This document shows, one piece after another, positions 20,998 to 33,583 of a stretch of 64,000 bases of DNA (position 1 is the stretch's first letter; every line of letters starts with the position of its first letter). This DNA is from Corynebacterium incognita (GTDB lineage: Bacteria > Actinomycetota > Actinomycetes > Mycobacteriales > Mycobacteriaceae). Made by a program: the position numbers and the translations under genes. Location of the stretch: the NCBI RefSeq assembly GCF_014217255.1, contig NZ_CP059404.1:992001-1056000 (forward strand). The letters are read 5' to 3'. The notes under the pieces are model-generated. The model saw only the letters and a program-made list of their open reading frames with translations, was not told the DNA's origin and did not search any database.

Positions 20998-21021
20998 GGT
21001 GTTGCTCCTTTCGGTTGGGGT

Positions 21022-21037
21022 GTTCGTGGCAGCGAAC
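21022..21037 (-). promoter_or_regulatory. CUGCCA-loop leader hairpin A
   Basis: RNA stem GUUCG/CGAAC closing loop CUGCCA, 25 bp upstream of the start codon at 20997 and followed by ACACCCCAACC and the ribosome binding site. One of five hairpins with the same loop and different stems. Confidence 0.7.
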
Positions 21038-21049
21038 CTTACCTAACAA

Positions 21050-21078
21050 ATGTTACATGATGATGTTGTGTTGCGCAA
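21050..21078 (-). promoter_or_regulatory. Repeated phage promoter-operator copy 3
   Basis: -35 TTGCGC, a 17-bp spacer and -10 TAACAT within the palindrome TAACATTTGTTA. It drives the operon of the 95-residue protein, WhiB B and RusA. Confidence 0.78.
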
Positions 21079-21128
21079 CTTGTAATTCAAATTGGAAAAC
21101 CCCAGGCCAAACTGGCAAAATTAGTCAC

Positions 21129-21935
21129 ATGACAAAATACGACCCTTACAACGCCCACGGCCTGAACATGACCCAACTAGCCAAACAAGCCGGCATCCGC
21201 CCCAACTGGCCAACACCCAAACAACTAGGCATCGCCCAAATAGGCTTTAAGCAAACACAAGCTTTGAACGAGGCATTAGCAGGCCCCGGCTCCCAGATGC
21301 GAGAAACGATAACGGGGCTGACAACCCAGCTCAATGCCATAACCCGGGCGACAGCAATCAACCCCGGTTTCATGGAAGCAATCACACAGGCCAACCAACT
21401 AGCCGCACGCATAGCACGCCCACAACTCAAAATTCAAGAATCACTCAACCGCAGCCTGCGACCCCTTGCCGCTATAAGCGCCATCGACGTCAAAACCCCC
21501 TACAACTTCGCCACAATCGAAGCCATTAAGGGTTCCATGCGCGGCTACAACGAACTGTCCAAGACGATGGCATCCATCATGGACATCTACGGCTCCACCA
21601 AACCAAAATGGGCTGTCGAAGCAGCGCTGCACTCCCCCAAGCTCCGCGAGCAAGCACAGGAAATAGCCGAGAAACAACCCGAGGTAGTCGAAGAACTCAC
21701 CGAGAAGTTCACCGGCGTACCCGTTGCCGAATTGAAACTACTAAAAGCGAGCGAGAAGAATGCTGCAATCGCCGAGTTTTTGGGCTACTTTTCTGGCTTA
21801 ATTTACCGGGCAATGGATGGTATCAGCGCTGAGCGATGGCTATTGGAGTTTACTACCGCTACAATTATCTTCCTCGTGGTCATCAACTCTCAGGCGTGCG
21901 CCGTCGAAGAGCGTCTTAATGACGATGCAGCGTAG
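21129..21935 (+). CDS. Plus-strand cargo protein with C-terminal membrane segment
   Basis: 268 residues from the ATG at 21129. The N-terminal half is Gln/Ala/Asn-rich and helical (QANQLAARIARPQLKIQESL). The middle is charged (EKQPEVVEELTEKF). Near the C-terminus is one hydrophobic segment (FTTATIIFLVVINSQA) followed by a short charged tail. It is opposite in direction to all neighbours and ends at a strong bidirectional hairpin. A CAAAAT box about seven bases before the ATG suggests leaderless transcription. No family is recognised. A lysogenic-conversion or anti-phage role is plausible from context but unproven. Confidence 0.78.
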   Translation: MTKYDPYNAHGLNMTQLAKQAGIRPNWPTPKQLGIAQIGFKQTQALNEALAGPGSQMRETITGLTTQLNAITRATAINPGFMEAITQANQLAARIARPQLKIQESLNRSLRPLAAISAIDVKTPYNFATIEAIKGSMRGYNELSKTMASIMDIYGSTKPKWAVEAALHSPKLREQAQEIAEKQPEVVEELTEKFTGVPVAELKLLKASEKNAAIAEFLGYFSGLIYRAMDGISAERWLLEFTTATIIFLVVINSQACAVEERLNDDAA

Positions 21936-21942
21936 ATAGGTA

Positions 21943-21982
21943 TTGCCCCGTGGTGGAGCTTGGCTCAACACTCACGGGGCAA
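21943..21982. terminator. Bidirectional terminator hairpin
   Basis: A 10-bp perfect inverted repeat, TTGCCCCGTG and CACGGGGCAA, with a 20-base loop, just after the stop codon of the plus-strand cargo gene and facing the end of the minus-strand operon on the other side. Confidence 0.7.
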
Positions 21983-22062
21983 CCTCGGGGATTCTGCACC
22001 ACACGACGGGGGATCATGGTGCCACCATCATACTAATGCAGGCCTACCAACACCGCACCTTG

Positions 22063-22269
22063 CTACTTAGGCTCTTCCGCGAGAAACACCAGTTCAGTAG
22101 CAATCTTCACGGATTCAGGGTCACTACCTCCATTAAGGTAATGCAAGCAGGCAACAAGTTCACGCCGGGTCAATCCCCGTGCAATCTCATAGCTCTCAAA
22201 AGGCGTACCAGACCCATCCGTCCAGATGTAATAGGCTCCCGATGTGCTCTTTTCTACTAAGAAATTCAT
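22063..22269 (-). CDS. Hypothetical phage protein
   Basis: 68 residues from the ATG at 22269 (GGGGATG site). It reads MNFLVEKSTSGAYYIWTDGS and ends VFLAEEPK. The pattern of an exposed Trp/Tyr strand followed by YEIARGLTRRELVACLHYL suggests a small sheet-helix fold. No family is recognised. It is the last gene of its operon. Confidence 0.65.
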   Translation of the reverse strand: MNFLVEKSTSGAYYIWTDGSGTPFESYEIARGLTRRELVACLHYLNGGSDPESVKIATELVFLAEEPK

Positions 22270-22371
22270 TTCATCCCCTTTACAGTGGCTACTTGATTTG
22301 AATGATGGCATTGTTTGACAACACCTCTACCGAGTCTAGCGTGACCATCGCATTCCATGAGAGAAAACCAT

Positions 22372-23133
22372 TTACTGCGCAGCTTCGAACAGTGGCAGTG
22401 GCTGCGTTACCGCAAACTGCACCTGGTCATGGAACGACTGGCAATACTCTTTCTTGATTTCGAATCCGTACCCGCGTCGGTTCAGGTTCTCGGCCGCAAT
22501 GAGTGACGAACCGCTTCCCGCGCATGGGTCGATCACTACGTCGCCGGGGTCGGTGAATAGGTCAACGAATTGTTCAAGCAATGGGACGGGCTTTTGGGTT
22601 GGGTGAACTTTGGGGGTTGTGCGGTCGGCCGGCCAGTCCCAGATGTTCATGACCATGCGGCCGTGGTTGCGGAATTTGGGGAGTTTTTGGCGGTAGAACA
22701 CCAATGCGTATTCGGCGTTGCCAACAATCTTCATGTTTGCTTTGAGTACTTGCGGGCTGGTGCGTTTGCGAAACACTAGGTTGATGTAGCCGTTGAAGCC
22801 GTGGCGTTTGGCCTCTTCGATCAGTGCCCATTGTTGGTCGAACGCGCAGAATACGACCATTGCGGGGGCTTGGCCTTTTTCTTTTGGTTCTTTACGCAGC
22901 ATGCGCGAGGCGAAGTGCATAAATTCGGGGACGCGGAAGTCTTTATCCGTGTCGAAGAACTGTTTACCGGCTAGTTCCGATTCACCTTTTTTGTTGTCCC
23001 CGTCGATGTACCATTTGGGGTTTGAGCCGTAGGCGTTGGCGCCGAGGTTGTAGGGGATATCGGCGAGGATTAGCTGCGCTTTGGGGATACTGTAGCGCTT
23101 GAAGTTTTGAAAATGATCGTTGAATAGCTCCAT
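22372..23133 (-). CDS. DNA N6/N4 methyltransferase (beta class)
   Basis: 253 residues. The catalytic motif is DIPY at residues 25-28, a change from the usual DPPY or NPPY. HPTQKP and VVIDPCAGSGSSLIAAENL (near residue 204) form the SAM-binding motifs X and I, in the beta-class order with the catalytic motif first. It likely methylates phage DNA against host restriction. No restriction partner is seen. The ATG overlaps the stop of the preceding gene (TAATG). Confidence 0.88.
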   Translation of the reverse strand: MELFNDHFQNFKRYSIPKAQLILADIPYNLGANAYGSNPKWYIDGDNKKGESELAGKQFFDTDKDFRVPEFMHFASRMLRKEPKEKGQAPAMVVFCAFDQQWALIEEAKRHGFNGYINLVFRKRTSPQVLKANMKIVGNAEYALVFYRQKLPKFRNHGRMVMNIWDWPADRTTPKVHPTQKPVPLLEQFVDLFTDPGDVVIDPCAGSGSSLIAAENLNRRGYGFEIKKEYCQSFHDQVQFAVTQPLPLFEAAQ

Positions 23134-23321
23134 TAGTTGACTTCCTCCACGGGGCCAACCAGGCGGCGGACGATGCGTTCATTGTTCCTCGGGCCGTGGC
23201 CTGGTTTGTAGGGATTAGGGTCAGGGGTCCACTCTGTGACTCGGTGCCACTGACCATCTTCTTGGCAGCGGGCTTCTACCGCGTATTCGTACTGCATCCC
23301 GGCGATGGTGAATGTCAGCAT
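23133..23321 (-). CDS. Hypothetical phage protein
   Basis: 62 residues from an ATG that overlaps the end of the upstream gene; a GTG at 23357 would extend it. It begins MLTFTIAGMQYEYAVEARCQ and has a Pro/Asn/Arg-rich second half. It overlaps the methyltransferase start. Position of the start is uncertain by one codon-overlap choice. Confidence 0.65.
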   Translation of the reverse strand: MLTFTIAGMQYEYAVEARCQEDGQWHRVTEWTPDPNPYKPGHGPRNNERIVRRLVGPVEEVN

Positions 23322-23689
23322 GGTTCCCATTCCCCTACCCAGCGGCGGTGGGTCCACCCGGTGCTACCGGCGTTGGGGGATAGTTGGGATTCGTTGACAA
23401 AGAAGTTGCTTGTTCCGTCTTCCCACTCCCCCGGCACTGGTGCACCGTTCGGCGTCCATGCGCGGGGCAGGTCGGGGCGTAGAGTCACGTTTTTGAAGCT
23501 GATGTATTCGCTCACTCCGCTGATGGGGTCGAGCAGCTTGACGTGTTGCGCACCCTGGTAGTTGCTGCTTGAGCGCAGGACGAAGAGGCGGTTTCCCGCG
23601 TCAATGCCGGGCTCATGTGGGCCGATGTTGCACCACATGCCGACGCATTCGGAGCGCTGGGCGAGGGGCATGTCTGCGAGGGTTCTCAT
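23315..23689 (-). CDS. Hypothetical phage protein
   Basis: 124 residues from the ATG at 23689, which overlaps the preceding stop (ATGA). The sequence has LFVLRSSSNYQGAQHVKLLD and other strands consistent with a small beta-barrel (SH3-like) fold. The next two upstream genes encode proteins of similar style. Function unknown. Confidence 0.68.
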   Translation of the reverse strand: MRTLADMPLAQRSECVGMWCNIGPHEPGIDAGNRLFVLRSSSNYQGAQHVKLLDPISGVSEYISFKNVTLRPDLPRAWTPNGAPVPGEWEDGTSNFFVNESQLSPNAGSTGWTHRRWVGEWEPC

Positions 23690-23892
23690 GCTTCGCTCAT
23701 TCCTGGGAGTTCGACGGCGTGGATTCGCATCCAGATTCCGGTGCGCCATTCGCCATCCATGAAAATCAAGAGTTCTGCGTTGGCCCCGTCGACGTCGTGC
23801 AAGATTGATGGGAAATCAAAGTGGGTGAAAACCGGCTTACCGATCCACTCTTCACGCTCTGCGGGTGTGAGGGCAGCGAGGGTCTTAGGCAT
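23686..23892 (-). CDS. Hypothetical phage protein
   Basis: 68 residues. LTPAEREEWIGKPVFTHF followed by ELLIFMDGEWRTGIWMRIH suggests a small sheet protein related in style to the 124-residue neighbour. It overlaps neighbours on both sides by 4-8 bp. Confidence 0.68.
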   Translation of the reverse strand: MPKTLAALTPAEREEWIGKPVFTHFDFPSILHDVDGANAELLIFMDGEWRTGIWMRIHAVELPGMSEA

Positions 23893-24133
23893 TTTGTTGC
23901 TCCTTCAGCGTGTCCCAGATGTCTTGCGGGTCGATGATGTTTGCGCCTTTCGGCAGGCCTTCAATTTGCAGGTTGCCGATGATTGTGAGGGTGACTGCGA
24001 CGTGGTCTCCGCATGGTTGGATTCCGGCGTTTTCCAGGCAGATGACGGATTGGCCGTTGATGGTGACGTCATCTTTCTTGAACACGATGTTGGTTTCATT
24101 CATCGTGTGCTGAGCCTTTTCAAACTGGTTCAT
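23885..24133 (-). CDS. Hypothetical phage protein
   Basis: 82 residues, acidic, with IVFKKDDVTINGQSVICLEN and a strand-rich middle, ending DTLKEQQNA. No family is recognised. It overlaps the preceding gene by 4 bp and the following by 8 bp. An internal ATG at residue 11 is a possible alternative start. Confidence 0.65.
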   Translation of the reverse strand: MNQFEKAQHTMNETNIVFKKDDVTINGQSVICLENAGIQPCGDHVAVTLTIIGNLQIEGLPKGANIIDPQDIWDTLKEQQNA

Positions 24134-24327
24134 TCTTGTTCCTTTTCTGCGTGGTTGGCGGCGGCGAGTAGTGCGTGGGCGTAGGCGCGGGCCTCCGCGG
24201 GGGTGAGGTAGGTGTTGGTGTTGAGGTAGACGCGGTGGCCGTCGGTTTCTACCAGCCCGTGTGGCGCGTCCTGGGACGTGCCGTACTCGGCGTGGCGGTC
24301 CGGGGAGGGAAGGTGCGGTTTATTCAT
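24130..24327 (-). CDS. Hypothetical phage protein
   Basis: 65 residues from the ATG at 24327, overlapping the upstream stop (ATGA). It has a His/Pro-rich start and the helix LTPAEARAYAHALLAAANHA at the C-terminus. Similar short proteins with a HRVYLNTNTYLTPAEA pattern are common in actinophages. Function unknown. Confidence 0.68.
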   Translation of the reverse strand: MNKPHLPSPDRHAEYGTSQDAPHGLVETDGHRVYLNTNTYLTPAEARAYAHALLAAANHAEKEQE

Positions 24328-24752
24328 CGCCGCTTCCCCCCCCACCTAAGTACCTGCCACGGGCGACTGCTTGCCATTTCTTTAGCGGTGAGCGTGTCAT
24401 TCAGGCTTTCCCAATCATCGGCGAAAACTTTTTGGTAGGCGTTTACTGAGGGGGCGGCAACCACAGTCCCCTCCGGGGCTTCCCGGAAGTCCTGCTCGGT
24501 GCCCAGCTCCACCGGGTCAAATGTCAGCTCGTGGTAGTCCAAATCCGCGGTGAAATTCTCCCCGCCGCTCACTAAAGCAACCGGCACCAAGCCGTTGCTT
24601 TGGAGCGAGTCGTGGACGCACATAACCCGCCCGAGCACAGGGTGAGTGGCCCACCGCCCCAACAGCCCCGTCGGCCCGGGTAGTAGTTTCTTGATTGCCT
24701 CAATATCCCCAGCCTCAATCAGAGCGCGAGGCACTTCAACAGTTTCAGTCAT
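24324..24752 (-). CDS. Tandem-duplicated phage protein, copy 1
   Basis: 142 residues. Residues 1-65 are identical to those of copy 2 next door, and identity continues with a few changes to about residue 90 (LDYHELTFDPVEL). Then the C-terminal 50 residues differ: NAYQKVFADDWESLND here versus a different stretch in copy 2, before both end with a similar PWQVLRWG. No family is recognised. The pattern indicates a recent duplication followed by exchange or divergence of the C-terminal half. Confidence 0.78.
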   Translation of the reverse strand: MTETVEVPRALIEAGDIEAIKKLLPGPTGLLGRWATHPVLGRVMCVHDSLQSNGLVPVALVSGGENFTADLDYHELTFDPVELGTEQDFREAPEGTVVAAPSVNAYQKVFADDWESLNDTLTAKEMASSRPWQVLRWGGKRR

Positions 24753-24797
24753 TGGTGTTCTCCTTGTAGTGCTCGGCGAGTAGCGCCAATGCGAGGG
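24557..24797 (-). repeat. Direct repeat copy 1 (241 bp, perfect)
   Basis: This stretch equals 25037-25277 base for base, 480 bp away. It covers the N-terminal codons of the duplicated gene, its ribosome binding site and the last codons of the gene upstream. Perfect identity at third positions shows a recent event. Confidence 0.92.
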
Positions 24798-24807
24798 TCT
24801 TGGTCAT
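24745..24807 (-). pseudogene. Fragment of the upstream gene left by the duplication
   Basis: The last 17 codons of the gene at 25225-25548 (ALALLAEHYKENTND) are repeated here with a new ATG and two or three new codons in front. The 20-codon frame keeps the AAGGAG site and stop-start overlap that serve the downstream gene, so it may act as a coupling leader. Confidence 0.7.
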
Positions 24808-24809
24808 GG

Positions 24810-25232
24810 TTATTCTCCCCTTCCCCATCGCACGACCTGCCACGGACCACGGGCGGTCATACCTTTGCTGTCGAGTTCGACGAGGTCAGAGCGCCACCCG
24901 CCGTAAAGTTTTTCTCGTGGAGCACGGCCTGCTGTGGTTACGAATGTGCCTTCTGGTGCGTCCTCGAAGTCTTGCTCGGTGACTAGCTCCACCGGGTCAA
25001 ATGTCAGCTCGTGGTAGTCCAAATCCTCGGTGAAAGTCTCCCCGCCGCTCACTAAAGCAACCGGCACCAAGCCGTTGCTTTGGAGCGAGTCGTGGACGCA
25101 CATAACCCGCCCGAGCACAGGGTGAGTGGCCCACCGCCCCAACAGCCCCGTCGGCCCGGGTAGTAGTTTCTTGATTGCCTCAATATCCCCAGCCTCAATC
25201 AGAGCGCGAGGCACTTCAACAGTTTCAGTCAT
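24810..25232 (-). CDS. Tandem-duplicated phage protein, copy 2
   Basis: 140 residues, partner of the gene at 24324. Shared N-terminus (MTETVEVPRALIEAGDIEAI). The C-terminal part, APREKLYGGWRSDLVELDSK, is unlike copy 1 and the end (PWQVVRWGRGE) is again similar. It overlaps the upstream gene by 8 bp. Function unknown. Confidence 0.78.
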   Translation of the reverse strand: MTETVEVPRALIEAGDIEAIKKLLPGPTGLLGRWATHPVLGRVMCVHDSLQSNGLVPVALVSGGETFTEDLDYHELTFDPVELVTEQDFEDAPEGTFVTTAGRAPREKLYGGWRSDLVELDSKGMTARGPWQVVRWGRGE

Positions 25233-25277
25233 TGGTGTTCTCCTTGTAGTGCTCGGCGAGTAGCGCCAATGCGAGGG
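25037..25277 (-). repeat. Direct repeat copy 2 (241 bp, perfect)
   Basis: Partner of the repeat at 24557-24797. The right edge lies inside the intact upstream gene, so this is the original junction and the other copy carries the scar. Confidence 0.92.
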
Positions 25278-25548
25278 GCCTTAATTCGTTTGGGGCGACG
25301 TCCACAGAGGGGAACGCCCTGGTGGCTTGGATGATGCCGCCGTGATACAGTCGGTGCCGCTCAGTCGGCCGGTAAGTGGAACGCGGCAGGGTAACAGTGA
25401 CGGTGCGGGCCTGCTTATCCGCGTAGGCGATGGCCTCAGCATGGGTCTTGCGCACACTCCGCGGGTTCCCTAACGCGTCGTACACAAACCACGCACGGCC
25501 CTTGTACGGGGGCTTAAAGCTCTCGCGCCGGACTCTCCACCGGGTCAT
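25225..25548 (-). CDS. Hypothetical basic phage protein
   Basis: 107 residues from the ATG at 25548, overlapping the stop of the small lipoprotein gene (ATGA). It starts MTRWRVRRESFKPPYKGRAW and carries KTHAEAIAYADKQARTVTV, a pattern of small actinophage proteins with a strand-helix repeat. Its C-terminal end is the part copied in the downstream duplication. Confidence 0.7.
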   Translation of the reverse strand: MTRWRVRRESFKPPYKGRAWFVYDALGNPRSVRKTHAEAIAYADKQARTVTVTLPRSTYRPTERHRLYHGGIIQATRAFPSVDVAPNELRPLALALLAEHYKENTND

Positions 25549-25682
25549 CGCAGCGCCTCCCAGTCGCAGGACAACCCGCCAGATATATACTTGTTTATCC
25601 CGCCCTGCTCTAAGCCCTTGTTTTCGCACCCGGTGAGGGACAACGCCAGGGCCACAACAGCGACGGTAGAGCGCTTAGTCAT
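25545..25682 (-). CDS. Mini-lipoprotein (45 aa)
   Basis: 45 residues: MTKRSTVAVVALALSLTGC is a complete lipoprotein signal with lipobox LTGC, and the mature part has only 27 residues. It sits in a chain of stop-start overlaps on both sides. Membrane-anchored peptides of this size in phages may affect lysis or exclusion; no family is recognised. Confidence 0.65.
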   Translation of the reverse strand: MTKRSTVAVVALALSLTGCENKGLEQGGINKYISGGLSCDWEALR

Positions 25683-25785
25683 TGGTGCCCGTTTCAGTGT
25701 TGAGGTGGGCTTGGAGTTCGGCGACGGTGATGGGGTTAGTGAGGTTGTGGGTGTGGTGCTTGGCGTTGGGGTTGTTGGTGAACAT
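25675..25785 (-). CDS. Small hypothetical phage protein (36 aa)
   Basis: 36 codons (MFTNNPNAKHHTHNLTNPIT then a helix VAELQAHLNTETGT) with a AAAGGAA site, first gene after promoter copy 4 and hairpin B. The stop overlaps the start of the mini-lipoprotein. The regulated leader in front supports it as a real gene. Confidence 0.62.
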   Translation of the reverse strand: MFTNNPNAKHHTHNLTNPITVAELQAHLNTETGTND

Positions 25786-25816
25786 GGTGGGTTCCTTTCG
25801 GTGGTTGGGGGTTGGT

Positions 25817-25834
25817 GTGGGGTGGCAGCCCCAC
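25817..25834 (-). promoter_or_regulatory. CUGCCA-loop leader hairpin B
   Basis: RNA stem GUGGGG/CCCCAC closing loop CUGCCA, 32 bp upstream of the start codon at 25785 and followed by CCCCCAACC and the ribosome binding site. It is the longest stem of the set (6 bp). Confidence 0.75.
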
Positions 25835-25850
25835 GTTCGGTACACAACAA

Positions 25851-25879
25851 ATGTTACCTCAAGGTGTTATGTTATGCAA
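25851..25879 (-). promoter_or_regulatory. Repeated phage promoter-operator copy 4
   Basis: -35 TTGCAT, a 17-bp spacer and -10 TAACAT followed by TTGTTG, giving the palindrome over the -10 box. It drives the operon that begins with the 36-residue gene and includes the tandem duplicates. It overlaps the last codons of the gene at 25872. Confidence 0.78.
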
Positions 25880-26132
25880 CTTTATCATGTTGCCCCACGT
25901 AGCGGGCGTAAAGGTAGCCGTTACGCACCACTCCCTCGAATCCTGGCCCCCACTCACCACGCCTTAAGCGGTTGGCGTAAACATTCCGGGTACGCTTCGA
26001 CAAGCGCTTTTGGTCTGGCCATGCGAGCCATGCTTCATCGGCGGGCACCCGTTCCGCTACCTCGATAAGGCGGTGTAGGAAGTGCTCATACTTGTAATGC
26101 GGTCGCGGTTCGGGTTCGGGTAGTTTGCTCAT
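25872..26132 (-). CDS. Hypothetical basic phage protein
   Basis: 86 residues. YEHFLHRLIEVAERVPADEA is helical and LSKRTRNVYANRLRRGEWG is strongly basic, so nucleic acid binding is likely. The C-terminal FEGVVRNGYLYARYVG resembles short phage proteins with a winged-helix-like end. It overlaps the methyltransferase pseudogene by 47 bp. Confidence 0.7.
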   Translation of the reverse strand: MSKLPEPEPRPHYKYEHFLHRLIEVAERVPADEAWLAWPDQKRLSKRTRNVYANRLRRGEWGPGFEGVVRNGYLYARYVGQHDKVA

Positions 26133-27045
26133 TTCTTTCTCCTAGTAGTTGTTTCAAGGCGGCTGCGCCTTGTTGAGGGCACACGCCGTTGCCAATGGCT
26201 TTCAGTTGCTGGGCGCGGGTCAATCCAATCTCCGGGGAGGTCACCCACCCGGCAGGCAGACCCATCATCCATTCCACAAATTCCGGGTTGGTCGCGGCGC
26301 GGTGTTCCGGGAAGCGTGGATGCACGCTGGGCTGCGCATGGTCCGCGATGAGCGGTGGCGGTGTGCGCCCGGTAGTGAGCGCCCAGCTGAGGATCGCTGG
26401 GCCGTAGTCCCCGAATTGCAGGGTTAGCTCATGGTCGATGTCGGCGGCGTGACTAAGCCCGGCCAGAAAGTCGTGCAGGTCGTTATCCCAGGTGATTGCC
26501 TGCGCCTGTCGGTTGGGCTGTCGAGGCGTTTGTGGTCGCTGGCCTGCGGGGTAGGCAAGAATGAATAGGCGTTCCCGGTGGTGCGGTGCCCCAATGTCGG
26601 ATGCTCGTAGAGTTGACCATCGTGCATCCCACCCGATTTCGGCAAGGTCACGGAGAACGGTGTCAAGCCCAAGGCTAACGTGGCCTGGGACGTTCTCAAA
26701 GACCTCGAATCGGGGTCGAAGTACGCGAATGGCGTCGAGGACATGCGGCCAGAGGTGACGGTCATCGGTGATTCCTTTCCTTAGCCCGGCGATGCTGAAC
26801 GGCTGACACGGCTACGGATAGCCAGCGGTGATCACATCAACGCGGCTATCGGCATCACCCCTTAGCGCGGACCAGTCCACTCGGGTTACGTCGCCGTAGT
26901 TGGGGGTGTCTGGGTAGTGGTGCGCGAGAATCTTTGATGGTGCGGTGTCGTATTCGACGAACCAGGCGGGCTGGGCGCCCGGGAATACGAGTTGCACCGC
27001 GCTGTCGAGCCCGCCGTAGCCGCTGAATAATGAGCCGATTTTCAT
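26086..27045 (-). pseudogene. Cytosine-5 DNA methyltransferase interrupted by an in-frame amber codon
   Basis: The frame encodes a full C5 methyltransferase: MKIGSLFSGYGGLD (motif I), YDTAPSKILAHHYPD, DVITAGYP, then TAG at 26812-26814, then PCQPFSIAGLRKG (catalytic Cys), FEVFENVPGH, SDIGAPHHRERLFILAYP, and NPEFVEWMMGLPAGW with LTRAQQLKAIGNGV at the end. Reading frame is kept throughout; only the six bases TAG CCG look inserted next to the catalytic loop. The product would end at 77 residues unless the amber is read through. The ATG overlaps the ssb stop (TAATG). Confidence 0.88.
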
Positions 27046-27536: not shown

Positions 27537-27554
27537 AAAAACGGGGTCTTTCTC

Positions 27555-27830
27555 CTAGTCGATTGGGTGATGATTAGTGATGATGGTGCGGGCAATATCC
27601 GGGACACTGGCCGGGTCAAGATGATGGAGAATCGCCACGGGTTCACCATTGGTGGTGATCCGGGCAAACATGCCACTGCATCCGCAACCCATCGACACCC
27701 ACACACTGAACAAACAGTTGTTGACATCCAAATATGCGGTGGCTGCATAGGTGCCGAAGATTTCCTCCACCACCGCCGTCACATCCAGGGCGGTGGCGGC
27801 ACGCTCCACCAGGAAAGCGTTAGTACCCAT
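27555..27830 (-). CDS. Hypothetical phage protein
   Basis: 91 residues from the ATG at 27830. It has a helical N-terminus (FLVERAATALDVTAVVEEIF), a strand-rich middle with the cysteine cluster MGCGCSG, and DIARTIITNHH at the end. No family is recognised. It overlaps the upstream 39-residue gene by 11 bp and is followed by ssb. Confidence 0.68.
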   Translation of the reverse strand: MGTNAFLVERAATALDVTAVVEEIFGTYAATAYLDVNNCLFSVWVSMGCGCSGMFARITTNGEPVAILHHLDPASVPDIARTIITNHHPID

Positions 27831-27939
27831 ACACATCCCCCACGGTGATTTCGGTATAAGCGGGAAAATCCGCCGAGTAGAAACACACCGCGAGGAACAA
27901 ACCGACGAGGCAGTACACCACGAATTCTTTGAAACTCAT
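27820..27939 (-). CDS. Small membrane protein (39 aa)
   Basis: 39 codons. EFVVYCLVGLFLAVCFY is a single membrane segment, followed by ADFPAYTEITVGDVYGY. The ATG follows the previous stop directly (TAAATG), and the end overlaps the next start. Tight packing supports translation; function unknown. Confidence 0.6.
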   Translation of the reverse strand: MSFKEFVVYCLVGLFLAVCFYSADFPAYTEITVGDVYGY

Positions 27940-28230
27940 TTAGGCCACATCCACATCAAGTTCAAGGTTTGCCAGGCGCGGATCTAGGTGGCGGAACGTG
28001 TCAATCGCGGATTCCATGGTGGTTTCTTCGTAGGTCATCATGAGGTCGTAGCGGATGCTCCCATCTTCGAGTACGTCCCAGTCGTTGACTACATCTTCGA
28101 CGAACAGGTTGGTGGTGTCAGCGTCAGCCGGGAGGATGATGGCTGCACGCACTTCCCAGTCTTGGATGGGGTTGTCGATGTTGTCGATGCGGTCTTGGTA
28201 GCGGTTTTCGAGGTAGGTTGCGTAGCTCAT
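27940..28230 (-). CDS. Hypothetical early phage protein
   Basis: 96 residues from the ATG at 28230, first gene after promoter copy 5 and hairpin C. It is acidic (DVVNDWDVLEDGSIRYDLMM) and starts MSYATYLENRYQDRIDNID. No family is recognised. A strong AAAAGGAG site precedes it. Confidence 0.76.
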   Translation of the reverse strand: MSYATYLENRYQDRIDNIDNPIQDWEVRAAIILPADADTTNLFVEDVVNDWDVLEDGSIRYDLMMTYEETTMESAIDTFRHLDPRLANLELDVDVA

Positions 28231-28263
28231 GTTGTGCTCCTTTTCCTGCTTGGTTGGGGTGTT

Positions 28264-28279
28264 CGGGGTGGCAGCCCCG
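28264..28279 (-). promoter_or_regulatory. CUGCCA-loop leader hairpin C
   Basis: RNA stem CGGGG/CCCCG closing loop CUGCCA, about 34 bp upstream of the start codon at 28230, then ACACCCCAACC and the ribosome binding site. Only about 13 bp separate it from the -10 box, so it is near the 5' end of the mRNA. Confidence 0.73.
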
Positions 28280-28291
28280 CTGACTGTTTCA

Positions 28292-28320
28292 ATGTTACAT
28301 GACTTAACACCATAGCGCAA
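28292..28320 (-). promoter_or_regulatory. Repeated phage promoter-operator copy 5
   Basis: -35 TTGCGC, a 17-bp spacer and -10 TAACAT. Here the AACAAATGTT palindrome overlaps the -35 side (28318-28327), not the -10 side, as in copy 6. Confidence 0.78.
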
Positions 28321-28327
28321 CATTTGT

Positions 28328-28374
28328 TGTGTGGTGTTGTGTCTTGCTGGTGGTGTTGTGTCTTGCTGGTGGTG
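28328..28374 (-). repeat. Short tandem repeat upstream of promoter copy 5
   Basis: Two and a half copies of a 19-bp unit (plus strand GGTGTTGTGTCTTGCTGGT) fill the gap between the promoter and the stop codon of the next gene. No gene fits. It may be a slipped duplication or a protein-binding array. Confidence 0.55.
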
Positions 28375-28836
28375 TTATGGCTGGTGGGGGTACATGTATG
28401 CAAGTAGTTCTGGGTTTTGTAGGCCTGCGAGGTGTGGGTGTTGGTTGTGGATTGTGGTGAGTTGGTTTCGGATGTGGTTGTGGAGTTTTTGGGATGCGAG
28501 TAGTCGGAGGTCGCGGGCGATGCTGACTCCGAGGTTGACTTGTCGGAGGTATACGAGGTCGGTGTAGTAGGTGGTGATGAGGGCTTCTTCGGTGTCGGGG
28601 TCGATGAGTAGCCAGCCGTGGTTGTGGAGTTCTTGGGCGGCTTGTTGGATGTCTTGGGCGGTGAGGTTGGTGTTGAGTGCTTGGAGTTTGTGGGGGCGGT
28701 ATTCGATGACGCCGGCCCAGGTGATGGAGGGGTGGGTGTGGGCTAGGAGGTAGAGCCATTGGGCGGTGTGGGTGAGTTGGGTGAAGTTGGGGTCGGTCCA
28801 GTGGTGGTAGGCGATTTTTCCGTAGTTGCGTGCCAT
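28375..28836 (-). CDS. Phage replication-associated protein
   Basis: 153 residues: KIAYHHWTDPNFTQLTHTAQ, a winged-helix-like middle (AQDIQQAAQELHNHGWLLID), then a His/Gln/Pro-rich end. Its wording (small organism-specific N-domain deciding on conditions of a Leu-rich helix pair) recalls the N-terminal domains of phage replication initiators, as does its location next to the initiator gene. A replisome-loading role is inferred. Codon choice is unusually rich in CAC and CCC. Confidence 0.65.
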   Translation of the reverse strand: MARNYGKIAYHHWTDPNFTQLTHTAQWLYLLAHTHPSITWAGVIEYRPHKLQALNTNLTAQDIQQAAQELHNHGWLLIDPDTEEALITTYYTDLVYLRQVNLGVSIARDLRLLASQKLHNHIRNQLTTIHNQHPHLAGLQNPELLAYMYPHQP

Positions 28837-28927
28837 TTGGGTTTCCTTGGGGGTTTTGGTGGCTTGGTGCCCTGTTTTTGGGCGTTTTTGGGGCTATGTG
28901 GGTGTTGTGTGGTGTGACATTTTGGTG

Positions 28928-29758
28928 TTATGCGGTTTCTTGGTTGTCGGCTGGTTGGTGGTTGCAGCGGTGGGCTACGCCATCCTGGACAGCGAGGCCG
29001 TTGGTGTCGCACAGCGAGCAGGCGTTGATGGCTTCGCGGCGTTTGTCTGCGAGTTCGTTGGTGTGTATGGCCTGGTGTGCATCGTCGATGAGTAGCCGTA
29101 GCAGGCCGGGGCCTTTGGGCTGTGGGCGGCGCTTGAATTCGTTGATGCCGGTTTGGATGGCGGTGTCGCTTATCCCGGCTTGGCGGGCGCGGGCGATAGC
29201 CGCGCCATGTTCGTTGGAGAGTTGGAATTGCTGCGCCTGCGAGTTATCCACAGGCCATAGATCACCGTTAGTTGGCTGGCTAGTAGTACCCATGTAATAG
29301 GTCGGGTCGGGTCGGGTCGGGTCGGGGCGCTGTGACAGGTGGTTGTGACTTTCGTGTGAGTCACAGGAACCTGTCACATGTGAGTCACGCGTGACATTTT
29401 CGCGTTTCTGCTGCTCTTGGGCTTTTCGTTCGCGTGATTTGCGTTGCCTTTCGGCTGCATCTTCGCGCTCTTTTAGTTTCTGTTCCCTACTGGGTTGGTA
29501 CTCATTCCAATCATGAAAGCGGTACACTTTCGCACCGTTTTCGTTGCGATCTTCGATCCAAATGCCCGCCAAAACGAGTGATTTTATCTGCGCCGGGGTG
29601 CCCTTAAACAGCTTCACCTGTGACGCGGGAATAACCCCATCGGTCAAATGCTTTCCACACCAGGCCCCAGATTTCGCCCACAAACCAATAGCCGCGTTGG
29701 GAACGTCAAGGAACTTTGGATGGTCATAGAATGAGTCATCTACTTTGAACCAACTCAT
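28928..29758 (-). CDS. Phage replication initiation protein
   Basis: 276 residues. The N-terminus MSWFKVDDSFYDHPKFLDVP is a hallmark of actinophage replication initiators with a winged helix (residues about 1-95, FHDWNEYQPSREQKLKERE). A basic coiled linker follows, then a low-complexity stretch (about 122-150, RPDPTRPDPT) whose DNA holds repeats, then a C-terminal part with Cys pairs (ACSLCDTNG and HRCNH) that may bind zinc. It should melt the origin and recruit host helicase. The repeats suggest the origin is inside the gene, as in lambda O. Confidence 0.85.
   Translation of the reverse strand: MSWFKVDDSFYDHPKFLDVPNAAIGLWAKSGAWCGKHLTDGVIPASQVKLFKGTPAQIKSLVLAGIWIEDRNENGAKVYRFHDWNEYQPSREQKLKEREDAAERQRKSRERKAQEQQKRENVTRDSHVTGSCDSHESHNHLSQRPDPTRPDPTYYMGTTSQPTNGDLWPVDNSQAQQFQLSNEHGAAIARARQAGISDTAIQTGINEFKRRPQPKGPGLLRLLIDDAHQAIHTNELADKRREAINACSLCDTNGLAVQDGVAHRCNHQPADNQETA
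29301..29388. other. Candidate phage replication origin inside the initiator gene
   Basis: Five copies of GTCGG in a row (29301-29325), then a 10-bp inverted repeat TGTGACAGGT (29331-29340) and ACCTGTCACA (29369-29378), plus two direct copies of TGTGAGTCAC (29355-29364 and 29379-29388). The encoded protein segment is a low-complexity linker, which suggests selection on DNA. Assigned by likeness to lambdoid origins. Confidence 0.6.
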
Positions 29759-29761
29759 TGA

Positions 29762-29995
29762 TTATTCCCCCTCTTCACTGTTGATGGTGGTTGTAAACTC
29801 AGCCCACATTTGACGGAATTCCGCATCGTGCGCATGGGTGATGACGTATTCGCAGATGAAAGCCGCGCCGGGGTCTAGGTTGTATTCCCCGGCTGCGTCG
29901 TCGCGGTGCATTTCGATGAGCATGTTGAGGGCTTGCTGGACGGTTTCACGGACTCCAACAACGGGGTTGGGGTGATTATTGTTGGCGCTAGTCAT
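29762..29995 (-). CDS. Hypothetical early phage protein
   Basis: 77 residues, acidic, with the helix VRETVQQALNMLIEMHRDDA and FICEYVITHAHDAEFRQMW. It ends 3 bp before the initiator start. No family is recognised. Confidence 0.72.
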   Translation of the reverse strand: MTSANNNHPNPVVGVRETVQQALNMLIEMHRDDAAGEYNLDPGAAFICEYVITHAHDAEFRQMWAEFTTTINSEEGE

Positions 29996-30031
29996 CGCTC
30001 ATCCTTTGTGGGTTGTGATGGGTGTTGATTA

Positions 30032-30066
30032 GGCCCCGGCGTGGTGTTGGATTCCCACCCGGGGCC
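30032..30066. terminator. GC-rich hairpin between early genes
   Basis: GGCCCCGG and CCGGGGCC, 8-bp perfect arms with a 19-base loop. On the plus strand a T-rich tract follows (GCTTTATCTTTT); on the minus strand the following bases are not T-rich. The 138-bp gap between the genes at 29762 and 30134 otherwise holds nothing recognisable. Confidence 0.5.
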
Positions 30067-30133
30067 GCTTTATCTTTTGACTTTCTGCCACTGGGCGTGT
30101 TGTCCAGCTGACAATGGCGTAATTACAAACCGT

Positions 30134-30463
30134 TTATGCAGCTTGCTGCATGGTTCCTACCCATTGGCGGATAGCTGCGCCGTGACGGGATGGGGTACGC
30201 GCTTCCACAAACTTCCCGGTAGGGCGAATCAGTCCGTCTTTGCGGGCGACGCGGAAGAATGAGCCGATCACGTTCGGATGATGTGGTTGTACGTCATGGC
30301 CTAGCAGTTCGCGCAGATCGTCGGCGGTGAATGGCTTGCCGGTGTTGGCTAGGCGTGTGAGGGCGTGGTGTGCGGCGACGTGCCAGCCTCGGTGTACGGC
30401 GATTTCGTTGTAGTAGGCGACGTCTCGGATGTCGGTGCCGTTGATGTCGATCATGGTTTGCAT
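30134..30463 (-). CDS. Hypothetical phage protein, winged-helix-like
   Basis: 109 residues. TADDLRELLGHDVQPHHPNV and GSFFRVARKDGLIRPTGKF match a winged-helix layout common to small phage proteins near replication genes. Another ATG at residue 4 could be the start. It is separated by 9 bp from the upstream gene. Confidence 0.72.
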   Translation of the reverse strand: MQTMIDINGTDIRDVAYYNEIAVHRGWHVAAHHALTRLANTGKPFTADDLRELLGHDVQPHHPNVIGSFFRVARKDGLIRPTGKFVEARTPSRHGAAIRQWVGTMQQAA

Positions 30464-30472
30464 GGTGTGCTC

Positions 30473-31288
30473 CTAGGCTGCTTGTCCGGTTTGGTTGGGG
30501 TTGTGCGCTGGCAGGCGCTTGTAGTGGTGGGTGATGCGGCTGGCTTCGTTTTCGCTGAGCCATTTCACATCTCCGCATTTGATTGCACGTAGCCGCCCGG
30601 TAGGGAGTTTGAGTAGTTCGGCACCGGCTTTAAGGCCGTACGTTTGCGCGATAGTGCGGGCACGCTGTTGGAGCAAAGCGGTGTTTTTACGTTCCCTGGG
30701 TAGGCGTTTGGGTTCCTGGTGGTATTCGGTTGGTGTGCAGTCTGGGTTGTCGATGTCATCCCATGCCAGTGGCGGTGCCCATCCTTTGGAACGGTATTTG
30801 GGTGCGGGTTCTGTGACTGGCCGCATTTGGTTGGCCTGGTAGTAGTCCCGGATGTTTTGGGCGTGCAACCGGCTGATTCGTGGAAATTCACCGCGTAGCC
30901 ATTCCCGTATTTGGGAGTCACCTACTTCTATGTTGGTGGCGATTTCTTTTACTGGGATTCCGATCGACACGAGTGCTTGTAGGCGTCGTGTGATGGGCCA
31001 GCTTGGGACGAATTTGGGGTGTTTGTTGAGGTTTTGCAGCCGGGTCAGTGTGTTTCTGCGGAGGGTTTTGTTGGTTCCGCTGGTAAATAGGCGGATGGTG
31101 TCTGGTTGCAGGCCGGCTGCTTTGGATAGGCCTTGTTCTGTCCAGCCTTGTGCCAGTAGGTGGTTGATGACTTGTTGGCATTCTTCACGGGTGGTGGGTG
31201 CGGGCTGGGTGAGTTTGGCGTGTTTTGCGCAGTATCCGCGTCGGCGGGCTTTGTTGGTGCAGCGGGCGCGTTTGCAAGTTGTGTTCAC
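30473..31288 (-). CDS. Helix-turn-helix protein with N-terminal Cys/His motif
   Basis: 271 residues from GTG. The N-terminus CKRARCTNKARRRGYCAKHA looks like a small zinc knuckle. Two helix-turn-helix regions follow: WTEQGLSKAAGLQPDTIRLF and VKEIATNIEVGDSQIREWL. The C-terminus has a third (YGLKAGAELLKLPTGRLRAI). Such proteins occur widely in actinophages and are assumed to bind DNA. Hairpin E lies in the leader. Confidence 0.8.
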   Translation of the reverse strand: MNTTCKRARCTNKARRRGYCAKHAKLTQPAPTTREECQQVINHLLAQGWTEQGLSKAAGLQPDTIRLFTSGTNKTLRRNTLTRLQNLNKHPKFVPSWPITRRLQALVSIGIPVKEIATNIEVGDSQIREWLRGEFPRISRLHAQNIRDYYQANQMRPVTEPAPKYRSKGWAPPLAWDDIDNPDCTPTEYHQEPKRLPRERKNTALLQQRARTIAQTYGLKAGAELLKLPTGRLRAIKCGDVKWLSENEASRITHHYKRLPAHNPNQTGQAA

Positions 31289-31311
31289 GTGTTTCTGGGT
31301 TGGGGGTTAGG

Positions 31312-31327
31312 GGTGCTGGCAGGCACC
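31312..31327 (-). promoter_or_regulatory. CUGCCA-loop leader hairpin E
   Basis: RNA stem GGUGC/GCACC closing loop CUGCCA, 24 bp upstream of the GTG at 31288 and followed by CCCCCAACC. No copy of the repeated promoter lies directly in front, so here the element sits in an intercistronic gap after recT. Confidence 0.72.
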
Positions 31328-31387
31328 GAGGATGGTTTGTTGGTTGTGGGGTGTGGTGTTCGGATGCCCCGCCCCGATTATTGGCCG

Positions 31388-32200
31388 CTAGGCGGCTTCT
31401 ACCTCGGCGGTATCGTCCACTACTTCCCCATCAACGTGGTTGGGGTGGTCAATAGCGGATTCGGCCATGTCCAGGCGGATGGATTCGTCCGCTGCAATAG
31501 CACGGTCGAATTCAGTATCCGACGGCATCCACTTCGCCAATTGGCGTACGCAGGTTTTGTGGGCCATTGCGTCGAAATTGTCAGCCCACGGGCCAAACAC
31601 CTTGCCCTCACGGTTCTTCGCCTTTGCGTGGTCGTCGCGGTACTGCATCATTTCGTTCTTGCTCATGACGATGAAGCTGTGGCCGCCGGTAGTGAACTTT
31701 GCGACGGCGTAGTAGGCGACGGGGTTTCCCTTCGGCCCGTTCATGCACGGCTTGTGAACGAGTTTGTCATCCAAGCCGTAGTCAACATCGAAGTAGTCGT
31801 TTTCGTACACCGTACGAGCGATAAGCGACTGGATTTGCCCGGATCGGTGCGCGAGTTCCACTAAGCCCCGGTATCCGATGACTAGTTGTGCCTGCATCCC
31901 GCCTTGCTTGCGGTCAAAGAAAGGCAAAAGGTAGGCCTGGCCAAGAACACCAGGTCGCAACCCCAACTGTGCACAGGTCATGAGTCCACCGAGTACGGAT
32001 GCGGGGCTGCATTCTGCGAGCTTCGGGGTTTGGCGTAGGCAGGTGAGTGCATCGCGTACGAGTTGCTGAGCCTCCATCCCCTTGGGCATTGCAAGGGAGA
32101 ATTGGGATTCCATTTGCTGAATTTGGTCTGCGATGGTTGCTGGGCGCTGTTGCGCGGGGGCGGTGTTTGCGGCCATACGAGCTTCAAGGTTTTTTCCCAT
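31388..32200 (-). CDS. recT: RecT-family single-strand annealing protein
   Basis: 270 residues. QLGLRPGVLGQAYLLPFFDR and QLVIGYRGLVELAHRSGQI are the RecT signature, followed by the YYAVAKFTTGG strand. It anneals complementary single strands together with the exonuclease encoded directly upstream (2-bp gap). The C-terminus is acidic. Confidence 0.94.
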   Translation of the reverse strand: MGKNLEARMAANTAPAQQRPATIADQIQQMESQFSLAMPKGMEAQQLVRDALTCLRQTPKLAECSPASVLGGLMTCAQLGLRPGVLGQAYLLPFFDRKQGGMQAQLVIGYRGLVELAHRSGQIQSLIARTVYENDYFDVDYGLDDKLVHKPCMNGPKGNPVAYYAVAKFTTGGHSFIVMSKNEMMQYRDDHAKAKNREGKVFGPWADNFDAMAHKTCVRQLAKWMPSDTEFDRAIAADESIRLDMAESAIDHPNHVDGEVVDDTAEVEAA

Positions 32201-32202
32201 GA

Positions 32203-33201
32203 TTAGTGTTCCTTTACTGGTTGGATGGATACGGATTGCATCTGCTTGTAGATGTCTGGGTGCTGGGCTTTGAGGGCTTTGGTGTCGATGGTGGGTTCTA
32301 GGCGGGTGACTTCCTTGGCGATGTTGGGGTGTTCATGTTCTAGGCGGGTGGTGTTGACCCGTCCGCGTCGTACCTTGGCCCAAATTCGCCGGTCACTGCT
32401 TAGGGTTTCGTGGCCATCCATGAGGGATGTGAACTGTGCTTTGAGACGGTTTACGTCTTGTTTGGCTTGCTTTTCCCGTTCGATGGCCTCCAACCATTCG
32501 GCGTGGAGGTCTTGGACTTGTTCGGGTGGTACTTCCCTACTGCCTGGCCGGTTGGCCCATTCGCGGGTGAGTGCTTCGAGGGTACGGGCGTGGCCGTCAA
32601 CATCCGGCGGGGTGTCAGTTTCTACGCAGTGCCAGAACTTTTCTTCCATGTCGAACAGCATTTCCTGAATACGTGGGTTGAGCTCAATTTCGTAGACACG
32701 GAAGTCATTGCCTCCGATGAGGGCGGCAACAACGGCGTGGGTTATGCCGGTGACTAGGCCTGCGTGGTGCACCTGGATTTCGGCATGATCTGCGATTTGG
32801 CCGTCCCATTTGCGGGCCTGTTGGCCGTGTGCGGTCTTGAATTCGCAGATACGCTCGTCGGCGGTGATGCCATCGAGGTTGGCGCGCAGCCACGGATGTT
32901 CGAGGTTGTAGTATCCAACTTCCGGCTTGGTGATTGGCATGCCTAGGTAGTCGGCGGTGGCCTCAAGAATGACGGGTTCTAGGCGGTTGCCCCATTCACG
33001 TAGGCGTTCCAGTGATTCGGATACTGGTGGGTCAAGCGGTGCACGCCCGGTCTTGACGTGCCACAGGCTGTACGCGGATTCGAATGCGGACATTCCGGCG
33101 ATGGCGGATGCATCGGATGAGCCGATGCCCTCTTGGCGCTGTTGCAGCCATTCGGCGCGGCTGTTCGTTGCTGGCAATTTGCCAAAGGTGTTATCCTGCA
33201 T
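32203..33201 (-). CDS. YqaJ-family recombination exonuclease
   Basis: 332 residues. The YqaJ core is seen in order: GIGSSDASAIAG near residue 26, EWGNRLEPVI, WLRANLDGI with the metal-binding Asp, and ICEFKTAHGQ with the Glu-x-Lys pair, then HAEIQVHHAGLV. It degrades one DNA strand to create ends for RecT. The C-terminal third is charged and helical. Hairpin D lies in the leader. Confidence 0.92.
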   Translation of the reverse strand: MQDNTFGKLPATNSRAEWLQQRQEGIGSSDASAIAGMSAFESAYSLWHVKTGRAPLDPPVSESLERLREWGNRLEPVILEATADYLGMPITKPEVGYYNLEHPWLRANLDGITADERICEFKTAHGQQARKWDGQIADHAEIQVHHAGLVTGITHAVVAALIGGNDFRVYEIELNPRIQEMLFDMEEKFWHCVETDTPPDVDGHARTLEALTREWANRPGSREVPPEQVQDLHAEWLEAIEREKQAKQDVNRLKAQFTSLMDGHETLSSDRRIWAKVRRGRVNTTRLEHEHPNIAKEVTRLEPTIDTKALKAQHPDIYKQMQSVSIQPVKEH

Positions 33202-33250
33202 ATGTGTTCCTCTTGGTTGGGGGACATCTTGACGGCCCCGGCACGTTTAT

Positions 33251-33266
33251 AGGGATGGCAGTCCCT
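33251..33266 (-). promoter_or_regulatory. CUGCCA-loop leader hairpin D
   Basis: RNA stem AGGGA/UCCCU closing loop CUGCCA, 50 bp upstream of the exonuclease start and followed by a variable stretch and CCCCCAACC near the ribosome binding site. It lies between the excisionase-like gene and the exonuclease gene. Confidence 0.72.
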
Positions 33267-33286
33267 GTGTTTGTGTGGCCGTCTTT

Positions 33287-33511
33287 TTATGCGCTGAGCA
33301 GTTTTCGTTCGGCCCGATCTGCTTGGTCGGCTAGGTGGTTCATGAATTCGTCTGCGTCAGTGACTGCGATCCGGTAGAGGGGTTTTCCAGGGTTGGTGGA
33401 GATGTTGACGGCTGGGAGGTTCCCGGCATTGATATGGCCGCGGATGAAGCCTTTGGATAGGTCGTAGTAGTCGGCCATGGTGGTGACGCTCATGTAGCGT
33501 TTTTCGGGCAT
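33287..33511 (-). CDS. Excisionase-like MerR-type HTH protein
   Basis: 74 residues from the ATG at 33511 (AGGAA site). TTMADYYDLSKGFIRGHINA is a winged-helix excisionase/HTH_17 motif and YRIAVTDADEFM is the end of the fold. It is the first gene rightmost in the early operon, divergent from the repressor. It may act as Xis or as a Cro-like switch protein. Confidence 0.8.
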   Translation of the reverse strand: MPEKRYMSVTTMADYYDLSKGFIRGHINAGNLPAVNISTNPGKPLYRIAVTDADEFMNHLADQADRAERKLLSA

Positions 33512-33583
33512 GGTTCCTGCTTTCGTTGAGTGGTTGGGGGTGCGCACCTAGTGGCGTTGGTGCTACTTGGTGCAACATCTAGA

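Follow-up and report, generated by a model that had tools for sequence, protein, structure and literature searches.

Whether a set of short hairpins in the leaders of prophage genes forms one RNA element, and what would read it, is the question raised by a 64,000-nucleotide stretch of Corynebacterium incognita DNA (NZ_CP059404.1, positions 992,001 to 1,056,000; hereafter the window), part of a 2.35-Mb chromosome. An earlier note on this DNA described five minus-strand hairpins that close the same six-base loop, CUGCCA, on different stems, and all five were found at the positions given, with the stems as written. A sixth hairpin, overlooked there (GCGC/GCGC, 30505-30518), precedes a 109-aa gene at 30134-30463. 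A seventh hairpin (GGCA/TGCC, 35516-35521) runs across the start of the integrase gene and has its C tract upstream, not downstream; it was excluded from the element set of six. All seven lie on the early-gene strand, and the six stems stand 23, 24, 31, 33, 41, and 49 nt from their start codons. The tract CCCCAACC, reported to follow each hairpin, does so at 2-12 nt in five of them; in the recE leader it lies further away (33215-33222). Within the whole genome, CTGCCA followed at 2-12 nt by this tract occurs five times, always inside the prophage. As the earlier note had said, the leader at 33540 lacks the loop but carries the C tract.

The CTGCCA hexamer by itself was at chance frequency in the window (47 observed vs 45 expected). 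Hairpins with this loop and a stem of at least 4 bp numbered seven, compared with a mean of 0.22 and a maximum of 3 in 300 dinucleotide shuffles. When CAACC was also required within 40 nt behind the stem, six were found, compared with a mean of 0.017 and a maximum of 1 in 300 such shuffles. Among all loops of 5-8 nt preceding a Shine-Dalgarno (SD) sequence and a start in the window, CTGCCA ranked first, with six distinct stems versus 2-3 in ten shuffles.

The same loop was found on other stems before starts in three prophages that share RecT (G016, G218, and G093); three further RecT-sharing prophages (G071, G076, and G074) lacked CUGCCA leader hairpins. Across 242 Corynebacterium genomes, the first covariance model matched at E <0.002 in G000, G016, G093, G218, and G211 only, and weak matches in 34 further genomes (E 0.0156 to 0.5) were taken as chance. 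The second covariance model gave 10 copies in G149, 8 each in G016 and G052, and 2 in G008; 12 other genomes had a single, weaker match apiece (E 6e-4 to 0.048). For model R1, 21 instances were listed and 13 aligned, two of which were removed as misaligned, and the loop variant CTGATA of G016 was retained; model R2 used 18 of the 23 listed sequences. One leader hairpin inside a CUGCCA phage (L064 10327, minus strand; GCCCCGC/GUGGGGC) carries the loop CUGAUA, a possible loop variant.

A blind scan counted, for each phage, the distinct stems of every 5-8 nt loop with at least 4 Watson-Crick pairs that preceded an SD and a start, and shuffles of the same phage served as the control. CTGCCA came top in the five CUGCCA phages, with 6, 4, 3, 3, and 4 stems. 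In prophages chosen on other grounds, a different loop emerged: CTGCAA stood on 9 stems in G052, 5 in the second G016 prophage, 7 in G149, and 3 in G008, where it was level with another loop and with the shuffles. In the Rhodococcus phage Jace, TGCCAG was found on 7 stems versus 2-4 in shuffles. G218, G093, and G008, with 3 stems each, did not exceed the best of ten shuffles (3) and were counted as members because the covariance models match them. The loop classes comprised CUGCCA in 5 phages, CUGCAA in 9, CCGCAA in 2, and UGCCAG in Jace. In the leader of one gene, two CCGCAA hairpins stand in tandem (L237 9604 and 9632; L238 9869 and 9899).

No such recurrent loop was found in REQ3, SV1, or ten actinophages (BFK20, P1201, Belphegor, ThulaThula, Lilbeanie, GTE6, TM4, Sonali, G4, and Blett); in P1201 and G4, one 5-nt loop occurred three times versus two in shuffles and was not leader-like. 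In 546 kb of these twelve phages, a single CTGCCA hairpin preceded an SD and a start, and none with CTGCAA, CCGCAA, CTGCGA, or TGCCAG did so. The exact pattern CTGCCA...CCCCAACC was rejected as a search key, being unspecific: it matched 117 of the 242 genomes, the reversed pattern matched many too, and none of the 30 loci L006-L035 had a stem of at least 4 bp at the match. Its matches do include at least one true element, in G093 (L068 15839). In the window, Rfam gave only two tRNAs over the gathering cut-off, and at E up to 1 it gave two weak matches in 18-36 kb, none at a hairpin. Our literature searches, covering open-licence papers, yielded no publication recognised as describing this element. 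The hairpins are a real RNA family, apparently an unnamed one.

The main covariation test took loops near starts by sequence, blind to pairing, with the nearest loop per start. In the 17 phages, 132 starts had a nearby loop, and 106 of these loops had stems of at least 4 bp; when the 3′ flanks were re-dealt among same-loop leaders, such stems numbered 16 on average and 26 at most. Homologous genes gave 125 pairs of four base pairs each, drawn from 88 leaders and so not independent, in which 316 base pairs were the same, 126 double-changed, 27 changed via wobble, and 21 broken; 174 base pairs thus differ across phages. For the 63 pairs at 60% identity or more, the counts were 32 double-changed, 9 wobble, and 3 broken. 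By class, 93.7%, 87.8%, and 97.2% of cells were base-paired, a level reached in none of 500 shuffles, although these sets had been chosen for hairpins. For example, a gene pair at 96.5% identity has the stem CGCGC/GCGCG in the second G016 prophage and GCCC/GGGC in G149.

By these comparisons, the element behaves as an RNA structure. The proposal of the earlier note, an RNA element that a protein or a small RNA recognises, fits the compensatory stem changes, the fixed loop, and the placement before the SD. The note had named a lack of further instances in related phages and of covariation beyond chance as grounds for refutation; both were found, the former by covariance search and blind scan and the latter as 126 double changes versus 21 broken pairs. 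A DNA-level site, that is, a promoter or repressor operator merely resembling a hairpin, would be expected to keep its arms, as in the start-linked repeats of Cluster EG phages, whereas here the arms change with pairing kept. Phage promoters do lie nearby in 25 of 62 cases, but a DNA-level site is already disfavoured by the sequence comparison and seems extremely improbable.

Each phage has its own loop type. In genome G016, one prophage of the CUGCCA type and one of the CUGCAA type share a stretch of about 70 kb. Twelve pairs of homologous genes carry unlike loops: four at 67-74% identity with full paired stems of different sequence, and eight at 28-42% identity, where the stem of the CCGCAA partner is only 3 bp long. 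Thus, L064 12991 (CUGCCA) and L167 8934 (CUGCAA) are 67% identical, and L127 18527 (CUGCCA) and L172 3094 (CUGCAA) are 73% identical. On this sequence comparison, the loop follows the phage, not the gene or the host. With two loop types in one host, and with each homologue bearing the loop typical of its phage, it is improbable that the loop is read solely by a protein or RNA of the host. The loop might instead pair with a small RNA, and a fixed loop on a varying stem would also suit kissing interactions. However, the three loop changes would demand matching changes in the RNA, a search of the coding strand of nine phages for reverse complements of the loops turned up no hairpin at a shared place, and no relevant Rfam family was found at 18-36 kb. 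We regard a small RNA as very unlikely.

The position of the hairpins relative to genes was then considered across the 17 phages. Of 112 hairpins with stems of at least 4 bp, 104 lie within 75 nt upstream of an SD-linked start, and three of the other eight (L064 16474, L068 15839, and L127 12831) precede a PHROG 1590 gene whose SD the pattern missed. The median stem-to-start distances for the four loops are 26.5, 19, 23.5, and 28 nt, and the distance is 16-25 nt for 47 of 66 hairpins in the CUGCAA class. Several early genes have such a hairpin ahead of their SD; in some cases it follows shortly after a predicted promoter, and in others it lies in the space between two genes. Each phage has 3 to 14 such leaders when stems of at least 3 bp are counted. 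A CCAACC-type tract lies between stem and start in CUGCCA phages; in CUGCAA, CCGCAA, and UGCCAG phages, an AAAGGA-type SD follows the hairpin without a C-rich tract. The tract, treated earlier as part of the element, is thus a feature of the CUGCCA phages.

A predicted promoter lies upstream of 25 of 62 leaders from ten phages, and the same score was reached at 60 of 2600 random places. The −10 lies 12-21 nt before the stem in 21 of these 25 (10 of 20 CUGCCA, 10 of 34 CUGCAA, and 1 of 8 UGCCAG leaders). Most CUGCCA cases have the motif TTGCNN-17-TAACAT, and CUGCAA cases mostly have TTTAC(A/T)-17-TATACT or similar. In folds of ten leaders, long ones tended to enclose the hairpin within a larger helix, and no common helix over the start codon was seen in eight leaders folded singly. 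Lambda nut/boxB and HK022 put are RNA elements for antitermination, and in an element of this type a hairpin near the 5′ end would load a phage factor on RNA polymerase. The promoters and their spacing would agree with this, as would the large GC-rich helices around some hairpins, the variable stem and phage-specific loop of boxB, and a WhiB-like partner of RNA polymerase. However, 37 of the 62 leaders lack such a promoter and many lie between genes, each preceding an SD; the closeness to starts (104 of 112 within 75 nt, with the CUGCAA peak at 16-25 nt) points elsewhere, and a single site per transcript would suffice. Antitermination is thus an unlikely explanation.

A second recurrent hairpin was seen between genes, with a stem of GGGG/CCCC, GCGCG/CGCGC, GAGCG/CGCUC, or GGGCG/CGCC(C/U) and a loop of CAU(N)CC...AAUCA or similar. 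Its sites are window 31350-31385 (minus strand), L064 16514 and 5795, L067 16127, L127 12791, L140 5228, L167 16902, L171 14182 and 14556, and L172 3070; at most of them a loop hairpin follows some 20-50 nt downstream. This second hairpin may serve in processing or termination.

Control of mRNA stability or processing would mean that an RNase or a protecting factor, of phage or host origin, binds or cuts the loop, and that the new 5′ end or the hairpin sets message life. Hairpins close behind promoters would suit this, and the second hairpin could be a processing site upstream of several between-gene copies. But the position is tied to the SD, and the loops differ between two prophages of one host, which makes a host enzyme unlikely as the sole reader; we consider this explanation distinctly unlikely. 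In our judgment, with a probability of about 0.68, the hairpins are operators through which an RNA-binding regulator encoded by the phage controls the translation of early genes. Each phage would tag its early mRNAs with a short hairpin of free stem and fixed six-base loop, and the phage-encoded protein would read the loop and set translation initiation of the tagged genes together. Of the two kinds of control suggested earlier, translational or processing, the translational one is favoured; processing is considered less probable.

To find a candidate reader, the open frames of G000, Jace, G149, and G052 were compared across 10 loop-positive and 16 loop-negative phages; some negatives are only 20-26 kb long, so that the absence of genes there is weak evidence. 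A WhiB-like protein with a C-terminal CxxC...CxxC motif (WhiB-Zn; in the window at 19467-20048, minus strand) was the best candidate, its family being present in all 10 loop-positive phages, none of which had been picked by means of this protein, and in three of the 16 negatives (G074, G165, and G127). The family is rare. There are 15 WhiB-Zn loci in 14 of the 242 Corynebacterium genomes, tblastn with two members against 50,697 phage records found Jace only, and a large protein database gave 8 matches. No CTGCCA hairpin was detected upstream of the start of the WhiB-Zn gene itself in the window. Two other proteins were rejected as readers: the PHROG 1590 protein occurs in 7 of 10 loop-positive phages but also in 8 of 16 negatives, and the 109-aa protein occurs in 8 of 10 loop-positive phages and also in REQ3.

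In a forward test, WhiB-Zn alone fetched 16 viral loci, namely 8 known phages and 8 new, non-identical ones, some of them related to known ones. Seven of the eight new prophages had recurrent loops, with 5-7 stems versus 1-2 in five shuffles, and two of these seven carried a new loop, CCGCAA. A 2×2 test of loop against WhiB-Zn (p 7e-9) was not relied on: seven viral loci were scored as lacking the protein, five of them (L050, L051, L052, L055, and L056) had not been tested for it, and the phages are not independent.

The Pfam WhiB model scored over its cut-off in 4 of 8 WhiB-Zn proteins, and the protein of the window fell below it (21.9 vs 23.6 bits). In profile searches, the N-terminal part matched solved WhiB structures (best E 0.0018), and the C-terminal part matched nothing better than zinc domains of an unrelated protein, and these weakly (E 0.007 or worse). 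An AlphaFold model had a mean pLDDT (predicted local distance difference test) of 76 and a pTM (predicted template modelling score) of 0.51, with the C-terminal tail below 50. The zinc-finger part reads R-x-K in CUGCCA phages versus W-x-R in CUGCAA and CCGCAA phages. Because the loop-negative G127 and G165 also have W-x-R, this split follows phylogeny and is no proof of loop reading. We put WhiB-Zn as the loop reader at somewhat less than an even chance. One survey reports >800 putative phage WhiB-like loci (PMC8612146).

If WhiB-Zn is the reader, it would act like Com of phage Mu on mom, but on many genes at once. As described in one account, Com is a four-cysteine (CCCC) zinc finger that recognises a hairpin upstream of mom, whose loop has six residues, and activates mom translation; it requires an accessible GA in the loop, and the mom start lies under an inhibitory structure (PMC6483171). 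The mom region printed there, GAAUGCCUGCGAGCAUCC, gives the loop CUGCGA in our reading. In both systems a hairpin with a six-base loop stands upstream of the SD, with CUGCGA in mom and CUGCCA, CUGCAA, or CCGCAA here, and with WhiB-Zn as the reader both would use a phage four-cysteine zinc-finger protein acting at the level of translation. Unlike the mom loop, the loops here end in CA, AA, or AG, not GA, and several genes per phage carry them instead of a single one. The likeness in RNA, position, and protein type is striking, but it does not make these hairpins members of the Com/mom type.

Other phage systems share single features. In phage T4, RegA is described as one protein that controls the translation of about 30 early mRNAs, and gp43 as binding a leader hairpin with a specific loop (PMC3014915). 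The regulator proposed here would resemble RegA in acting on many early mRNAs and gp43 in the type of site. However, the same account describes RegA sites as lacking clear structure and as overlapping or directly preceding the AUG, and gp43 control as autoregulatory (PMC3014915). As for the sign of control, we lean slightly toward shut-off of the RegA kind, because the hairpin stands beside strong SDs; the Mu Com analogy would argue for activation instead. The translational operators of Com, RegA, and gp43 all come from Escherichia coli phages (PMC6483171, PMC3014915). The loops here are phage-specific and the stems variable. In lambda N/boxB, too, the stem varies and the loop is particular to the phage and suited to its own protein, but that system acts on transcription and has few sites per phage.

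Repeated motifs before many start codons are also found in other actinophages. The start-associated sequences (SAS) and their extended form (ESAS) of Clusters K and EF, and the start-linked inverted repeats of Clusters EG and O, are reported as conserved-sequence motifs of unknown function, and the authors state that the ESAS arms generally do not support RNA pairing (PMC3203893, PMC7302621, PMC12699233). Here, in contrast, the arms vary yet pair and the loop is fixed. The Cluster K SAS GGGATAGGAGCCC with at most 2 mismatches matched the window once (41293) versus 1.6 expected, which bears out the earlier remark that these motifs have other sequences. ESAS-type 17-bp arms of conserved, non-covarying sequence were not matched, as the arms here covary. 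The Cluster EG repeat GATCAACCNNGGTTGATC with 3 mismatches matched the window twice (35559 and 50274; 0.24 expected), and neither match was at one of the six hairpins.

Several results weigh against the hairpins, the operator reading, or its proposed reader. Folding energies are ordinary (z −1.7 to +1.4 for eight leaders folded singly), and the lowest-energy fold of 30460-30530 lacks the GCGC/GCGC hairpin; the inner recE-leader hairpin is present in the lowest-energy fold of all five homologous recE leaders. The case for the hairpins stands on sequence comparison, not on folding energy. Among the 132 loops near starts, 26 have stems below 4 bp, and some stems lie up to 71 nt from the start, which is far for simple occlusion. 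With regard to the reader, the eighth prophage of the forward test (L234, 20 kb, related to G093) has WhiB-Zn without a recurrent loop, as do G074, G127, and G165, of which G127 and G165 were negative again in the forward test. The WhiB-Zn of G127 is close to that of the loop-positive G149 (E 1e-78), and none of the three genomes with a distant member (G044, G220, and G013) showed recurrent loops. WhiB proteins are known as transcription factors. A Com homologue (Zn_ribbon_Com, PF10122) scored over the cut-off in none of 13 genomes, with Jace and the IMG/VR phages not searched, and Zn_ribbon_Com was not among the Pfam matches of the eight WhiB-Zn proteins. Loop-positive phages share other genes too, such as terminase (including Jace, whose terminase lies outside the stretch used in the reader comparison), and the link with WhiB-Zn may therefore be one of common descent. 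A search for other loop sizes in the WhiB-Zn phages without recurrent loops gave none that was convincing. In the prophages of G127 and G165 (L169 and L165), long-stem leader hairpins with unlike loops precede GAAAGGA-type SDs.

More broadly, we tentatively suggest, as a possibility short of likely, an actinophage family with a regulon-wide RNA code, in which a single hexaloop that differs from one phage lineage to another (CUGCCA, CUGCAA, CCGCAA, or UGCCAG) would mark many early mRNAs. The reader would be a protein derived from WhiB, bearing a zinc finger and a putative iron-sulfur site, that sets translation, perhaps with a redox input, and loop and reader would co-evolve. If so, two prophages in one cell would keep separate circuits. 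Many operators per phage, with homologous genes carrying the loop of their own phage, make a natural experiment in RNA-protein co-evolution. Translational switches that are orthogonal to one another could be derived from the system for use in Corynebacterium and Rhodococcus, and the WhiB-like proteins of phages could gain an RNA-level role; a recurrent loop on varying stems before starts is a search key applicable to all phages.

The prophage in the window reads leftward from the integrase (34326-35606) to the terminase (14550-15779), and after the integrase come excisionase-like, RecE, RecT, replication/SSB, methyltransferase, RusA-like, dUTPase, ParB-like, and terminase genes. The leader elements given next, and the genes behind them, lie on the minus strand. 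The hairpin AGGGA-CUGCCA-UCCCU (33251-33266; loop 33256-33261) is nested in an outer helix GACGGCC/GGCCGUC in the leader of the RecE-like exonuclease gene (32203-33201; PHROG 434). The hairpin GGUGC-CUGCCA-GCACC (31312-31327; loop 31317-31322) is followed by its tract at 31298-31305 and by the PHROG 1590 gene, which encodes a zinc-finger-like protein with a helix-turn-helix (30473-31288). Inside the end of that gene lies GCGC-CUGCCA-GCGC (loop 30509-30514), with its tract at 30493-30500 ahead of the 109-aa gene, whose function is unknown (PHROG 21939).

The other three hairpins follow predicted promoters. A −35 TTGCGC (28315-28320), 17 nt before a −10 TAACAT (28292-28297), precedes CGGGG-CUGCCA-CCCCG (28264-28279; loop 28269-28274), the tract at 28252-28259, and a 96-aa early gene without a PHROG match (27940-28230). 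A −35 TTGCAT (25874-25879) and a −10 TAACAT (25851-25856) precede GUGGGG-CUGCCA-CCCCAC (25817-25834; loop 25823-25828), the tract at 25803-25810, and a 36-aa open frame (25675-25785). A −35 TTGCGC (21073-21078) and a −10 TAACAT (21050-21055) precede GUUCG-CUGCCA-CGAAC (21022-21037; loop 21027-21032), the tract at 21013-21020, and a 95-aa early gene without a PHROG match (20710-20997).

Elsewhere in the window, the adjoining genes at 24324-24752 and 24810-25232, with the preceding stretch, form a tandem duplication whose copies are nearly identical for much of their extent (24324-25320). A large GC-rich hairpin, GGCCCCGG...CCGGGGCC (29988-30067, minus strand), stands between two genes and has a weak, below-cut-off match to the R1162 plasmid antisense RNA. 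Extra promoter-like sites of the type TTGC-17-TAACAT/TAACCT and ATGTAACATT/TGTTGC dyads, both without the hairpin, occur on the minus strand at about 18150, 20100, 33600, and 35650, and they may be repressor operators.

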